From Aurantiacibacter sediminis (lineage in GTDB: Bacteria > Pseudomonadota > Alphaproteobacteria > Sphingomonadales > Sphingomonadaceae), in NCBI RefSeq assembly GCF_016019885.1, contig NZ_JAEANY010000004.1, positions 207,054 through 271,053 on the forward strand: a stretch of DNA of 64,000 bases. The letters run 5' to 3'. Numbering within the stretch: the stretch's first letter is position 1; each line of letters begins with the position of its first letter. The position numbers and the translations under genes were made by a program. The notes under the pieces were generated by a model. The model was not told the origin of the DNA. It ran no database searches and saw only the letters and a list, made by a program, of their open reading frames with translations. Below are positions 18,027 through 22,602 of the stretch, piece by piece.

Positions 18027-18980
18027 TCATCGATTAGAACCACCTAGTTCGTCGATCAGTTCCCGCATGTCATACGGTATTTCGCTGGTAAAACGGCATT
18101 GGTTACCGTTGACGGGATGATCGAAGCCCAGAGTCGCTGCGTGCAGCGCCTGCCGCTGAAAATTCAAAGCTTTCAGGGTCTGGCGGAGCGGCGATGGCGT
18201 GCGCCCATATGTTGGGTCCCCTAATAGCGCATGACCGATTGACGCAAGGTGAACCCGGACCTGGTGCGTGCGCCCTGTTTCGAGGCGACATTCGATCAGC
18301 GCGGCATGGTCCAGTCGCTGCACAGTCTTGTAGTGCGTGACCGCGTGTTTTCCGCGTTTCGTATCGTCCGGCAGCACCGCCATTTTCTTGCGATTGTTGT
18401 CCGATCGGCCAAGCCGCCCGGAAACCGTCCCAGCGGAAGGATTAGGATGGCCGCCGCAGAGGGCTAAATAGGCCCGCTCCAGCGAATGATCGGCGAACTG
18501 TTTCGCCAACCCCTCATGCGCGGCATCGCTTTTGGCGACGACGAGGAGGCCGGAGGTATCCTTGTCGATCCGATGGACGATGCCCGGCCGCGCGACCCCG
18601 CCAATACCGGAAAGCTGGCCGCGGCAATGATGCAGCAAAGCGTTCACCAGCGTCCCGTCGGGATTACCCGCAGCGGGATGCACCACCATGCCCGCCGACT
18701 TGTCGACAACAATCAGATGCTCATCTTCGAACACTACGCTGAGCGGTATGTCCTGTGGAAAAGCTTGTGGATCGCTTGGGGGCGGAATGTGGATCAAAAA
18801 GCTCTGGTCAACTTGAGCTTTAGCCGAGGGGCTGGTGGCGGGTCTACCGTCCACCTCGACCTTGCCCTCGGCAATCAACGCCTTGATCCGCTCACGGGAG
18901 AGATCGGTGACTTCAGCGAGCGCCTTGTCCAGCCGCGTGGCTGTGTGGATAATTCCGGTAAGGGTTTGGGGTCGTTTCAA
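18027..18980 (-). CDS. rluD: RluA-family 23S rRNA pseudouridine synthase (RluD-like)
   Basis: A 317-residue enzyme. The N-terminal S4 RNA-binding domain (TRLDKALAEVTDLSRERIKALI) is followed by the synthase domain with the catalytic aspartate in HRIDKDTSGLLVVAKS and the motif ETGRTHQVRVHLASIGHALLGD. RluD-type enzymes modify helix 69 of 23S rRNA. Assignment to RluD rather than RluA or RluC rests on the S4 domain and overall length. It lies upstream of rpoH on the same strand, with a 120-base gap that should hold the rpoH promoter. Confidence 0.92.
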   Translation of the reverse strand: MKRPQTLTGIIHTATRLDKALAEVTDLSRERIKALIAEGKVEVDGRPATSPSAKAQVDQSFLIHIPPPSDPQAFPQDIPLSVVFEDEHLIVVDKSAGMVVHPAAGNPDGTLVNALLHHCRGQLSGIGGVARPGIVHRIDKDTSGLLVVAKSDAAHEGLAKQFADHSLERAYLALCGGHPNPSAGTVSGRLGRSDNNRKKMAVLPDDTKRGKHAVTHYKTVQRLDHAALIECRLETGRTHQVRVHLASIGHALLGDPTYGRTPSPLRQTLKALNFQRQALHAATLGFDHPVNGNQCRFTSEIPYDMRELIDELGGSNR

Positions 18981-18998
18981 GCGGCTTAGACTCCGATT

Positions 18999-19022
18999 GC
19001 CCTGAGCTTGTCGAAGGGCTGC
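18999..19022 (+). repeat. 24-bp inverted repeat, left copy (sphingomonad REP-like)
   Basis: The core is CCTGAGCTTGTCGAAGGG. It is an exact reverse complement of the sequence at 19321-19344 over all 24 bases. The core is itself partly palindromic. It sits 18 bases upstream of the rluD start and 25 bases before the ATG of the GIY-YIG frame. Confidence 0.85.
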
Positions 19023-19046
19023 ACTTCACTTAACTCGAGCAGAGCA

Positions 19047-19739
19047 ATGTTCTGGGCCTATATCCTCCACTGCCGAGCGGGCAAACTCTACACCGGACAT
19101 ACTGACGACCTCGAGCGCCGTGTATGGCAGCACGAGACCGGCCAAATCCCCGGTTTCACGCGGAATTTTCTGCCGGTCAAACTGGTTTGGTCTGAAGAAT
19201 TTGTAACGCGAGAAGAGGCGAAGGAGGCCGAGAAGCAGATCAAAGGCTGGTTACGCCGCAAGAAGTTGGCACTGATCCGTGGGGACTGGGATGCGATATC
19301 GCGTTACGCAAAGAGCAAAAGCAGCCCTTCGACAAGCTCAGGGCCACCGGTGGTAGTTTCTGACGAAGTTCACAATCACCTCATCCGCGAAGCCCGGACC
19401 GCCCACCCCAATGAATGCTGCGGCATCCTCACCGGACATGGCGCGCAAATCACCGGCCTTATCCCGGCCAAAAACGTCCATTCCGCCCCCGCAACGCATT
19501 TCGAGATCGACCCGCAGGTTCTTATCAACGCCCACCGCGCCGAGCGTGAGGGTGGCCCGCAGGTCATCGGCTACTACCACTCCCACCCGCATGGCCCCGC
19601 CTATCCCTCGCAAACTGACGCGCAAATGGCCGCTGGCGACGACAAAATCTGGGCGATAGTAGCTCCGGGTGAGACGACGTGGTGGCGCGATACGCCGGAT
19701 GGGTTTTTGCCGCTTCCCTACACTGTGACGAGCAGCTAA
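19047..19739 (+). CDS. GIY-YIG nuclease domain fused to a JAMM/MPN metallopeptidase domain
   Basis: A single frame of 230 codons encodes two unrelated domains. Residues 1-85 form a UvrC-type GIY-YIG domain of the short stand-alone family (FWAYILHCRAGKLYTGHTDDLERRVWQH in pieces, then EAEKQIKGWLRRKKLALI). Residues about 92-100 are encoded by a REP-like repeat (SPSTSSGPP). Residues about 102-230 are a JAMM zinc peptidase, with Glu in NECCGILTG and the motif HSHPHGPAYPSQTD giving His, His and Asp ligands. JAMM proteins of this size in bacteria remove isopeptide-linked or C-terminal residues, often in sulphur-carrier pathways. A GTG at 19350, with AGGG upstream, could start the JAMM domain separately. 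Whether the product is one fused protein or two is unresolved. Confidence 0.75.
   Translation: MFWAYILHCRAGKLYTGHTDDLERRVWQHETGQIPGFTRNFLPVKLVWSEEFVTREEAKEAEKQIKGWLRRKKLALIRGDWDAISRYAKSKSSPSTSSGPPVVVSDEVHNHLIREARTAHPNECCGILTGHGAQITGLIPAKNVHSAPATHFEIDPQVLINAHRAEREGGPQVIGYYHSHPHGPAYPSQTDAQMAAGDDKIWAIVAPGETTWWRDTPDGFLPLPYTVTSS
19321..19344 (-). repeat. 24-bp inverted repeat, right copy (sphingomonad REP-like)
   Basis: Exact reverse complement of 18999-19022. On the plus strand it reads CCCTTCGACAAGCTCAGGG and is translated as PSTSSG inside the fused frame. Confidence 0.85.
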
Positions 19740-19877
19740 GCGCATCGCCATGGACCTTCACCAAAGCCTTGAAATCACCCGCATCGATCAAGGCGGGTGC
19801 ATGCACCGGATTTTTGGTTTAGGACACTGTCACACCTGTCACACCCCCTCTCCTTTTGAGCATTGCCAACCCCAGCC

Positions 19878-20531
19878 ATGACATCCTCCACCGATCTTGC
19901 CGCCCTGCTTTGTTCGCGCCTTTGCCACGACATGCTGAGCCCTGTCGGCGCGCTCAATAACGGCTTGGAATTGCTCGCGGATGAGAGCGATCCGGCGATG
20001 CGCCAGCGTTGTCTCGAGCTATTGGAGCAGAGCGCGCGGACTTCTGCCAGCAAGCTCAAGTTCTTCCGCCTTGCATACGGTGCGGCCGGCGGTTTCGGCG
20101 AAGCAGTCCCCTCGGACGAGCCGCGCGACCTGCTGGAAGCGCTGACAGCCGAGAATGAGCGACTGACTTTCGATTGGGCGGTGTCTGAAGCGACGCTATC
20201 CAAACCGGCAGTAAAGGTGCTCCTCAACCTCGCGGCCATGGGCCTTGAGTCGTTGGTGCGCGGCGGCACGCTGGCTGTCGGTGCGGAACGGCAGGGCGGC
20301 GCTACCGAGATCGCCATCCGCGCTTCAGGCCCCAAAGTCGCCTTCGACGATACCATCGGTCAGGCTCTCTCGGGCAAGCTCGACGCTGCGCAGATCACGG
20401 GCCGCACAGCTCCCGCTCATATGATCAAGCTGCTCTGCGATGAGCAGGGTGGCGGTGTGCAATATGCCAATACCGGCGAAGCGCTGGTGTTGGGTGCGGT
20501 GCTACCCGATCCCGAAGGGATGATCGGCTGA
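19878..20531 (+). CDS. chpT: Histidine phosphotransferase ChpT
   Basis: A 217-residue protein with the ChpT signature CSRLCHDMLSPVGALNNGLELL. His17 is the expected phospho-acceptor in the dimerisation helix, and a degenerate ATPase-like C-terminal domain follows (GPKVAFDDTIGQALSG, AHMIKLLCDEQGG). In Caulobacter ChpT passes phosphate from CckA to CtrA and CpdR, which links cell-cycle control to ClpXP proteolysis. The ATG at 19878 is chosen over a TTG five codons upstream. It overlaps the next gene by TGATG. Confidence 0.9.
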   Translation: MTSSTDLAALLCSRLCHDMLSPVGALNNGLELLADESDPAMRQRCLELLEQSARTSASKLKFFRLAYGAAGGFGEAVPSDEPRDLLEALTAENERLTFDWAVSEATLSKPAVKVLLNLAAMGLESLVRGGTLAVGAERQGGATEIAIRASGPKVAFDDTIGQALSGKLDAAQITGRTAPAHMIKLLCDEQGGGVQYANTGEALVLGAVLPDPEGMIG

Positions 20532-21252: not shown

Positions 21253-22260
21253 TTGGACGCGCTGCTATCTTTGCTTTCGAGCTTCGCCAACCAGCTGCAA
21301 TCGCCGACCCTCGCTTTCCTGATCGGCGGCATGCTGCTTGCCGCATGCGGCAGCAAATTGGCGATCCCCGATGCGGTGTATCGCTTCATCATCTTCATGC
21401 TACTCATGAAAGTAGGCCTGAATGGCGGCATCGAAATCCGCAATGCCGACCTGGCTCAGCTCGCGCTTCCAGCCGTGTTCGCTGTTGTCATCGGATGCGT
21501 CGCGGTGCTGCTGGGGCTGGTCACACTGGGCAAGTTGCCGAATGTGAAGCGGGAAGACGCACTCGCTACATCGGGCCTCTTCGGCGCAGTGAGTGCATCC
21601 ACACTGGCGGCCGCGATGGTGGCGCTTGATGAAGCCGAGATCACATATGAAGCGTGGGCGCCAGCCCTATACCCATTCATGGACATCCCCGCGCTGATTC
21701 TCGCAATCGTGCTCGCAAAGCTGGCGGGTAAGGGAAAGTCTGGGAGCAAGCAAAACCAGCTCACCGCAAAGCAGATCATCGTCGACTCGCTGCGCAGCTC
21801 CGCCCTGTCGGCGCTCCTGCTCGGCATGCTGATTGGCTTCGTGGTGCAGCCCGTCGAGCTCTATGAAGGCTTTTACGAGCTGCTTTTCCGCGGGTTCCTC
21901 TCCATCCTGATGCTCATCATGGGGATGGAGGCATGGTCCCGCCTGTCCGAACTTCGCCAGGTGGCCCAATGGTTCGCCGCCTATGCAGCGCTCGCGCCGA
22001 TTGTGCATGGCCTCATCGCATTCGGCCTCGGGTACATCGCGCACATCACTGTGGGTTTCAGTCCGGGCGGTGTCATCATCCTGTCGATCATCGCAGCGTC
22101 CAACTCAGACATCTCCGGCCCGCCGACACTTCGCGCCGGCATACCATCGGCCAATCCCTCCGCTTATATCGCCGCCTCCACCAGCGTTGGCACACCCATC
22201 GCAATTGCCGTGTGCATCCCGCTCTTCATCGCTTTGGCCGAAGTTGTCTTTCCGGCCTAG
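21253..22260 (+). CDS. sbtA: Sodium-dependent bicarbonate transporter, SbtA family
   Basis: A 335-residue membrane protein with about ten helices. The family signature SNSDISGPPTLRAGIPSANPS and the paired block GLFGAVSASTLAAAMVALD are clear. SbtA proteins import HCO3- with Na+ in cyanobacteria. The start is a TTG at 21253, with GGAG nine bases upstream. The PII-like gene sbtB follows after 27 bases, as in cyanobacteria. In a heterotroph it may supply bicarbonate for carboxylases; that role is inference. Confidence 0.9.
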   Translation: MDALLSLLSSFANQLQSPTLAFLIGGMLLAACGSKLAIPDAVYRFIIFMLLMKVGLNGGIEIRNADLAQLALPAVFAVVIGCVAVLLGLVTLGKLPNVKREDALATSGLFGAVSASTLAAAMVALDEAEITYEAWAPALYPFMDIPALILAIVLAKLAGKGKSGSKQNQLTAKQIIVDSLRSSALSALLLGMLIGFVVQPVELYEGFYELLFRGFLSILMLIMGMEAWSRLSELRQVAQWFAAYAALAPIVHGLIAFGLGYIAHITVGFSPGGVIILSIIAASNSDISGPPTLRAGIPSANPSAYIAASTSVGTPIAIAVCIPLFIALAEVVFPA

Positions 22261-22287: not shown

Positions 22288-22602
22288 ATGAGTGTTGCTG
22301 CAACCACCGTCACCATCATCGCAGAGCGAATGCTGCAGAGCCAGATCACGCGCATGCTCGATGAAACGGGCGCTACGGGCTACACCGTGGTGGAAGGCAG
22401 CGGCAAAGGCCATCACCTCACCCGCACGCATGAACGACCCAGCATCGTTCGAGACTTCGATATCGTGCGGATCGAATTCGTGATGCTTGACGGCGATCAT
22501 GCCCGCGAAATCGCCCAGCAAATCGCCGATGATTTCTTCGTCGACTACTCCGGGATCATCTACATCACCCGTGCGGAAGTTCTTCGCGCCGACCGTTTCT
22601 GA
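22288..22602 (+). CDS. PII-like regulator of the bicarbonate transporter, SbtB-like
   Basis: A 104-residue ferredoxin-fold PII-like protein (TVTIIAERMLQSQITRMLDETGATGYTV in pieces, GSGKGHH in the T-loop region, IVRIEFVMLDGDHAREIAQQI). It lies directly behind sbtA. Cyanobacterial SbtB binds adenine nucleotides and caps SbtA. The C-terminal cysteine pair found in some SbtB proteins is absent; it ends in LRADRF. The name follows context plus the PII fold. Confidence 0.8.
   Translation: MSVAATTVTIIAERMLQSQITRMLDETGATGYTVVEGSGKGHHLTRTHERPSIVRDFDIVRIEFVMLDGDHAREIAQQIADDFFVDYSGIIYITRAEVLRADRF

Follow-up and report, generated by a model that had tools for sequence, protein, structure and literature searches.

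Small GIY-YIG nuclease genes between tagged hairpin repeats suggest an unrecognised kind of small mobile DNA

Results

A GIY-YIG gene enclosed by inverted repeats lies between rluD and a JAMM gene

The stretch of DNA analysed here, called the window throughout, comprises 64,000 nucleotides of the Aurantiacibacter sediminis genome (contig NZ_JAEANY010000004.1, positions 207,054 to 271,053). The spacer between an rluD-like gene and a JAMM peptidase gene in this window is taken up by a unit that consists of a small GIY-YIG nuclease domain and two inverted repeats (Table 1). An earlier note, made from the sequence alone, had described a perfect 24-bp inverted repeat around the GIY-YIG domain, and this was confirmed: positions 18999-19022 and 19321-19344 are exact reverse complements (24/24 nt). 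When the arms are lengthened to 18993-19022 and 19321-19350, 28 of the 30 nt match. We set the edges of the unit further out than the 24-nt arms, at conserved trinucleotides (CCG on the left, CGG on the right), a placement supported by the comparison of another unit, L215/L231, described below. A search of the window for the 19-mer CCCTTCGACAAGCTCAGGG, allowing up to three mismatches, returned the two arms and no other site; shuffled windows gave 0.02 sites on average and two copies in 0 of 100 shuffles, so that a chance repeat can be rejected. The repeat is predicted to fold into a 5-bp stem with an 11-nt loop and the tag CCG plus 3 nt.

Table 1. Features of the rluD-JAMM locus, in positions of the window.
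Feature	Position	Strand	Remarks
Whole REP/GIY-YIG unit	18993..19350	+	outer tag CCG to outer tag CGG; about 358 bp
Left REP copy	18993..19022	-	tag CCG 18993-18995; stem 18999-19003/19015-19019; core 19002-19016
Right REP copy	19321..19350	+	stem and core within 19324-19344; core 19327-19341; tag CGG 19348-19350; doubles as translated linker
GIY-YIG nuclease domain (UPF0213/YhbQ-like)	19047..19320	+	profile match and residue alignment
GIY-YIG-JAMM fusion gene	19047..19739	+	230 aa from ATG 19047, stop counted in
JAMM/Prok-JAB peptidase domain	19353..19736	+	HSHPHGPAYPSQTD motif present; possible internal GTG start 19350
rluD-like pseudouridine synthase	18027..18980	-	divergent neighbour of the unit
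Histidine phosphotransferase gene	19863..20531	+	synteny with rluD and JAMM kept in 29/30 loci of relatives

The open frame 19008-19739 matches the GIY-YIG profile PF01541 (58.1 bits) and also the Prok-JAB profile PF14464 (87.2 bits), which bears out the earlier claim that the right repeat is translated and runs straight into the JAMM domain. Translation likely starts at ATG 19047; the TTG listed at 19008 falls inside the left repeat. With a PF01541 match above the cut-off, about 90 residues and the active-site-type residues retained, the first domain qualifies as a small GIY-YIG (UPF0213/YhbQ-like) protein. Y15, G17, R25, H29, E62 and K66 (numbered from 19047) were invariant in 16 aligned relatives drawn from both clades of the family, and Y5 was nearly so. 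The UPF0213 proteins PDB 1ZG2 and 1YWL share the domain, size and conserved residues, but these entries are titled hypothetical proteins; their gene surroundings lay outside the comparison.

Between the two domains the right repeat is translated as SSPSTSSGP, with the repeat core beginning at codon 94. An AlphaFold model of the fusion contained two confident domains (mean pLDDT 83.1, pTM 0.54), and residues 89-97, which overlap the repeat-encoded linker, were the only stretch below 50 pLDDT. The JAMM half has the fold of the JAMM/Prok-JAB family and its metal-binding motif, and its best Foldseek match was JAMM1 of P. furiosus (5LD9, E 3.4e-10). We infer that the fusion gene probably yields a single protein joined by a REP-encoded linker; a separate start of the window JAMM from GTG 19350 could also be used.

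The repeat forms tagged hairpins and gene-less pairs in the genome

The 2.67-Mb genome contains 18 copies of the repeat core, CTTCGACAAGCTCAG, and none of the reversed control sequence. Eight of the core copies are arranged head to head as four exact pairs whose starts are separated by 56-61 bp, and at L001, L011 and L015 a partner copy with two or three mismatches is found at a similar spacing. The unit's own two copies have the same mutual orientation as the short pairs and are 325 bp apart, while 16 of the 18 copies are without a GIY-YIG gene.

At three stem positions, pairing is kept with compensatory letters in 18, 15 and 18 of the 18 copies, compared with 14.4, 8.8 and 10.0 expected if the positions were independent. 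The hairpin claim rests on this covariation because single copies did not fold clearly better than their shuffles (z -1.5 to +0.1). The trinucleotide CGG stands at +7 to +9 from the core in every one of the 18 copies, and beyond it we saw no conservation except a preference for A.

The 13 nt at the inner side match the inner ends of the unit at 8-10 positions in 13 of the 16 other copies, while the outer flanks of the other copies match it at only 2-6 of 13 nt; these outer flanks were the sole control, and no formal one was made. Because the inner ends match the unit and the outer flanks do not, the short pairs look like gene-less derivatives of it. Rfam held no family for the repeat at E <= 1. 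Peptides derived from the repeat, such as PSTSSG, were found in several reading frames.

Repeat pairs flank small GIY-YIG genes in several phyla

A repeat pair was taken as present when the flanking inverted-repeat score was at least 13, a threshold chosen after the exact repeat lengths were known (at least 14 nt at 23 of 32 loci). Within the Sphingomonadaceae, the window GIY-YIG was matched in 42 of 59 genomes, with 114 matches. We examined 92 of the matches listed, L020 and L021 having been added from the search of the own genome, and observed the pair at 78 of the 92 loci compared with 4 of 184 shifted controls. A wide scan of genome contigs gave a pair at 68 of 80 GIY-YIG loci (controls 3/298), L190 and L220 being the same places as the family loci L025 and L026. 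Among the 23 wide-scan loci not labelled alphaproteobacterial, three of which are labelled only Proteobacteria, 19 had the pair. Wide-scan loci with a pair included Methylococcales, Nitrosomonadales and two Thermodesulfobacteriota MAGs; a Nitrospirota MAG was just at 13, and the locus of a Deltaproteobacteria MAG scored below it.

In a broad sample of Pseudomonadota, the pair was present at 16 of 45 small GIY-YIG loci and at none of 90 controls. Of 49 loci in this sample, 45 could be used, since three ran off their contigs and one duplicated a place already covered; they represent high-scoring matches, not all matches of the sample. The plasmid collection yielded a pair at 10 of 14 loci, with L175, L179 and L263 representing one site in related strains, and UvrC genes yielded none (0/20). 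When left and right flanks of different loci were combined as a control, a repeat of at least 14 nt appeared in 46 of 400 draws, a control that is weakened by shared repeats. The reading put forward in the earlier note would have fallen had this repeat shown no association with GIY-YIG genes elsewhere, and on this point it stands. The pairing is general but not universal: scores below 13 were found at 14/92 loci in the family, 12/80 in the wide scan and 29/45 in the broad sample.

Nuclease clades are coupled to repeat superfamilies

The A. sediminis genome contains four GIY-YIG matches, namely the window gene, UvrC and the small genes L020 and L021, and all three non-UvrC genes are enclosed by repeats, which fall into two superfamilies. 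L020 (G000:C7:386775-389996, 1443-1811) and L021 (G000:C7:372786-376007, 1406-1772) are enclosed by CGTC-type inverted repeats that match perfectly over 27 and 30 nt, respectively. In the accessible part of Di Nocera et al. 2013 (PMC3733652), CGTC REPs are described as having an 8-9 bp stem starting with AT, a 4-5 nt loop and mostly a CCA tail, and as lacking a dedicated transposase gene, so that their mover is left open; the term "GIY" is absent from the main text of that report. Judged by eye, the L020 and L021 repeats meet this description with a CGTC head, an 8-bp stem starting with AT and a 4-nt loop, the tail being CCA in L021 and CTC or CTG in L020. The likeness to the REPs in the portion of Di Nocera et al. 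that was available does not extend to the window repeat, which fails these criteria (CGTC head, 8-9 bp stem starting with AT, 4-5 nt loop, CCA tail).

The repeat superfamily, either CCG-tagged or CGTC-type, switches only once along a tree built from 144 GIY-YIG proteins, while 500 shuffles of the labels gave 43.6 changes on average and never fewer than 34. Types within the CGTC group change 7 times (shuffle mean 26.5) and those within the CCG group 3 times (shuffle mean 13.1). The tree used 144 of 178 loci (six were dropped for stops or shortness, 25 had no repeat pair and three had no assigned type), and the types were assigned from the repeats by pattern, six of them by eye. The repeat is not peculiar to the window gene: GIY-YIG clades go with differing repeat superfamilies, CGTC REPs among them. 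In this way both the CGTC REPs and the CCG-tagged type are linked to clades within a single family of small nucleases, and the question of what moves the CGTC REPs, which the accessible text of Di Nocera et al. 2013 (PMC3733652) leaves open, becomes testable with a protein of about 90 residues and short hairpins.

The arms themselves are conserved as tagged hairpins. CCG occupies one register in 102 of 112 CCG-type arms and the two neighbouring registers in none (0), and stem pairs covary across the same arms (CC/GG 50, TC/GA 27, TG/CA 10, GC/GC 9, GG/CC 6). The two arms of a unit agree in all 9 nt of tag plus stem in 23 of 44 cases, where 2000 permutations gave 6.5 on average and at most 15; the 15 nt outside the arms gave 4.89 matches, inside the permuted range (mean 4.33, maximum 5.18). 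In the CGTC group, a YGTC tag stands at the outer end of both arms at 32 of 54 loci.

Occupied and empty sites and the boundaries of units

At 58 rluD-JAMM loci, the spacer carries a GIY-YIG gene in 16 (12 facing JAMM and 4 facing rluD) and lacks one in 42, so that orthologous loci without the insert, whose alignment the earlier note had proposed, do exist; in 23 of the 42 the spacer is at most 30 nt long. A GIY-YIG gene too diverged for tblastn at 1e-4 would escape this survey, and the L123 spacer holds Ns. The landing at the rluD-JAMM site is old: 14 of the 30 loci studied in the genus carry a GIY-YIG gene there. The tree gives 8 changes for this site, of which well-supported branches force only one, and single and repeated entry both remain possible.

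Other rluD-JAMM spacers hold a repeat pair without a gene (L168), a single CCG-type repeat (L116) or a CGTC-type repeat (L119). The unit is reversed in the spacers of L125 (G009) and of L158, L165 and L152, which belong to the genus, and an inversion between the arms cannot be distinguished from a separate insertion.

The clearest boundaries come from the units L215 (Candidatus Nitrotoga) and L231 (a Nitrosomonadales MAG), which are 85.8% identical over 366 bp. Their alignment ends at most 2 nt from the outer repeat ends on both sides, and the flanks differ. This is the only listed pair in which both ends of the similarity lie at the tags; in other pairs the flanks are shared or the similarity breaks off within the unit. 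Azospirillum lipoferum 4B carries a CGTC-type unit between sufB and sufC (L177 1377-1889), with the GIY-YIG gene flanked by two REP dimers. The suf operons of A. ramasamyi, A. oryzae and Azospirillum sp. B510, which are 95-96% identical to the filled one, have no such unit; in B510 this spot holds another palindrome. The Azospirillum insertion junction could not be placed in the diverged spacer, and neither a target-site duplication nor a target motif was recognised at the rluD-JAMM or Azospirillum suf sites. In Sinorhizobium, the gene is present in all four records that cover most of the query.

Among the fetched family loci, nucleotide identity across the gene stayed below 78% for any two that came from the same genome, and recent whole-unit jumps are therefore not seen there. 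RAYT genes resemble housekeeping genes in copy number, according to the accessible part of PMC8266576. The earlier note had pictured a REP-plus-nuclease mobile unit that landed at the 5' end of a JAMM gene. The occupied and empty sites support such a landing, but the evidence for mobility is comparative only: no cutting, excision or new insertion was observed, and the movement itself remains unseen.

The protein might instead be a host repair nuclease that acts on REP hairpins or cruciforms, with the REPs gathering for reasons of expression or regulation and nothing being mobilised. SLX1, a structure-specific endonuclease by its PDB name, is among the weak profile matches of the nuclease family (E 9e-4), the few and diverged unit copies per genome are as expected of a kept host gene, and 29 of 45 small GIY-YIG genes in the broad sample have no repeat pair. 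We nevertheless consider this account unlikely, since the L215/L231 match stops at the repeat ends while the flanks differ, the rluD-JAMM site varies in the presence and in the orientation of the unit, the two arms are matched within units, and different clades have different repeats inside one genome.

The repeats follow the GIY-YIG gene and not a Y1 transposase

RAYT was rejected as the mover of the repeats in the A. sediminis genome, which contains no match to the Y1 transposase (PF01797; RAYT) at E <= 0.001. A Y1 gene was matched in 12 of the 59 family genomes, and the copy number of the core showed no link to Y1 genes (p = 0.98, 59 genomes). The core had a median of 12 copies in the 21 genomes with a clade-A GIY-YIG gene and of 0.5 copies in the 38 without one (one-sided Mann-Whitney p = 9e-5). 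A genome was credited with clade A when its match reached E <= 1e-16; G007, with no more than a fragment, was scored as lacking it. This test is not corrected for shared ancestry; the 59 genomes span 58 genera. Many copies of the core without a detected clade-A gene were found in G010 (57; 89% completeness), G054 (39), G039 (16) and G002 (13), as relic families would show. Viral contigs queried with the clade-A GIY-YIG contained no relative, and virus-borne units were rejected for this query.

These repeat-rich genomes could also be cited for the view that an unknown transposase or a general process spreads the REPs, which then accumulate beside dispensable genes and have the GIY-YIG gene as a mere passenger; the repeat of the other superfamily, the single repeat and the gene-less pair in rluD-JAMM spacers (L119, L116, L168) would fit it as well. 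We regard this as very improbable: accumulation of that kind does not account for the lack of pairs at shifted positions in the same loci and at UvrC genes, and neither matched arms nor the coupling of superfamily and clade would be expected from it.

GIY-YIG enzymes drive the homing of introns and of free-standing genes. Like GIY-YIG homing endonucleases such as I-BmoI, the window unit would be a selfish element served by a GIY-YIG domain; it differs from them in its hairpin repeat ends and gene-less derivatives; no intron or intein context was seen. A homing-type endonuclease that cuts unit-free alleles and is copied in by repair, with the REPs as mere recombination borders, would return to one site, which fits the occupation of a single site in many species (14/30 in the genus, 16/58 overall). 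Such homing leaves unexplained the gene-less copies (16 of 18 here, and core counts of up to 87 in a family genome), the repeat-flanked genes beside differing neighbours and the covariation of the hairpin, and we hold it to be distinctly unlikely.

The closest parallel is with the RAYT/TnpA-REP REPtrons, in which a small nuclease gene likewise lies between inverted tagged hairpins, gene-less head-to-head pairs occur elsewhere in the genome, and a fixed tag stands beside the stem. The criterion of a nuclease gene flanked by inverted REPs together with REP pairs elsewhere is met by the window unit. The enzyme, however, is HUH/Y1 there and GIY-YIG (PF01541) here, and the tag is GTAG there and CCG or CGTC-like here; the GTAG tag at the foot of the hairpin is not met (CCG in 102/112 arms, 3' CGG in 18/18 own copies).

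We propose, with a probability of roughly 0.68, that these arrangements are GIY-YIG "REPtrons", small mobile units that would be functional analogues of the RAYT/REP REPtrons built on an unrelated nuclease. Sequence comparison establishes the anatomy of the unit, the association of repeat pairs with the gene, the conservation of hairpin and tag, the coupling of repeat and nuclease, the boundaries of one pair, the empty sites and a long-kept fusion frame; recognition, cutting and movement in cis or trans are inferred from these. The nuclease would most likely recognise its own hairpin plus tag in DNA that is single-stranded or extruded, and would cut beside the tag. Host replication and repair would complete the spread of the unit in cis, and short repeat pairs (REPINs) with shared ends would be spread in trans. 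Since GIY-YIG enzymes act by hydrolysing DNA and, to our knowledge, no strand-joining activity is known for them, the insertion step would have to be borrowed from the host. A second clade of the family would act likewise on CGTC REPs.

The arrangement suggests an unrecognised kind of small mobile DNA. If the proposal is true, the mobilisation of REPs evolved anew on the basis of an unrelated class of enzyme, and the repeats as well as the repeat-derived peptides (PSTSSG) are accounted for; it may also explain widespread repeats that have no known mover. No report of a GIY-YIG/REP pairing was found among the literature matches listed, which do not cover subscription papers and preprints.

Fusion of the GIY-YIG domain to host proteins

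At the loci where the GIY-YIG gene faces JAMM, the two share an uninterrupted frame in 11 of 12, although the JAMM of ten relatives with the shared frame is just 54-81% identical to the window JAMM. In L156, there is no in-frame ATG, GTG or TTG between residue 79 and the ECCG motif of JAMM, and judging from this sequence its JAMM can therefore hardly be made alone. Three of the four units facing rluD are unfused, and one is fused to RluD (L125 in G009, the same place as L024). The GIY-YIG domain is fused to a SpoU/TrmJ-like methylase in six family genomes (L027, L028, L029, L032 and L033 by Pfam, L060 by eye) and to alanine racemase in L040, and the JAMM fusion is thus one of several GIY-YIG fusions (SpoU methylase, RluD, alanine racemase).

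For the window, we suppose that an ancestor acquired the unit in its rluD-JAMM spacer, in some lineages in reversed orientation, and that the 5' end of the JAMM gene was then taken over by the open frame of the unit. The earlier note had named a conserved fusion without the repeat as an outcome that would refute its reading. For the SpoU-type fusion this outcome was met, four of the six loci (L029, L032, L033 and L060) having a flanking-repeat score below 13. We read these fusions as later domestication, in which the 5' ends of host genes were repeatedly captured and the repeats then decayed.

In its widest form, the proposal makes small GIY-YIG proteins the dedicated movers of two large repeat superfamilies, the CGTC-tagged REPs and the CTTCGACAAGCTCAG-type repeats with the CCG tag, in bacteria of several phyla. 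They would form another class of REPtron, of independent origin, that moves tagged hairpins without any known type of transposase and was repeatedly anchored by in-frame fusion to the 5' ends of host genes. We lean towards this wider form only slightly. The proposal, if it holds, also offers an example of how a mobile unit can become a domain of host proteins.

A role of the fusion in a defence system was not upheld, since PADLOC matches fell only on the JAMM half, were weak and came without given cut-offs. The NCBIfam matches to the fusion and one to L020 were all far below their cut-offs. Elsewhere in the window, positions 21253-22260 and 22288-22602 hold a gene pair that, by eye, we take to resemble an SbtA-type bicarbonate transporter and a PII-like protein.
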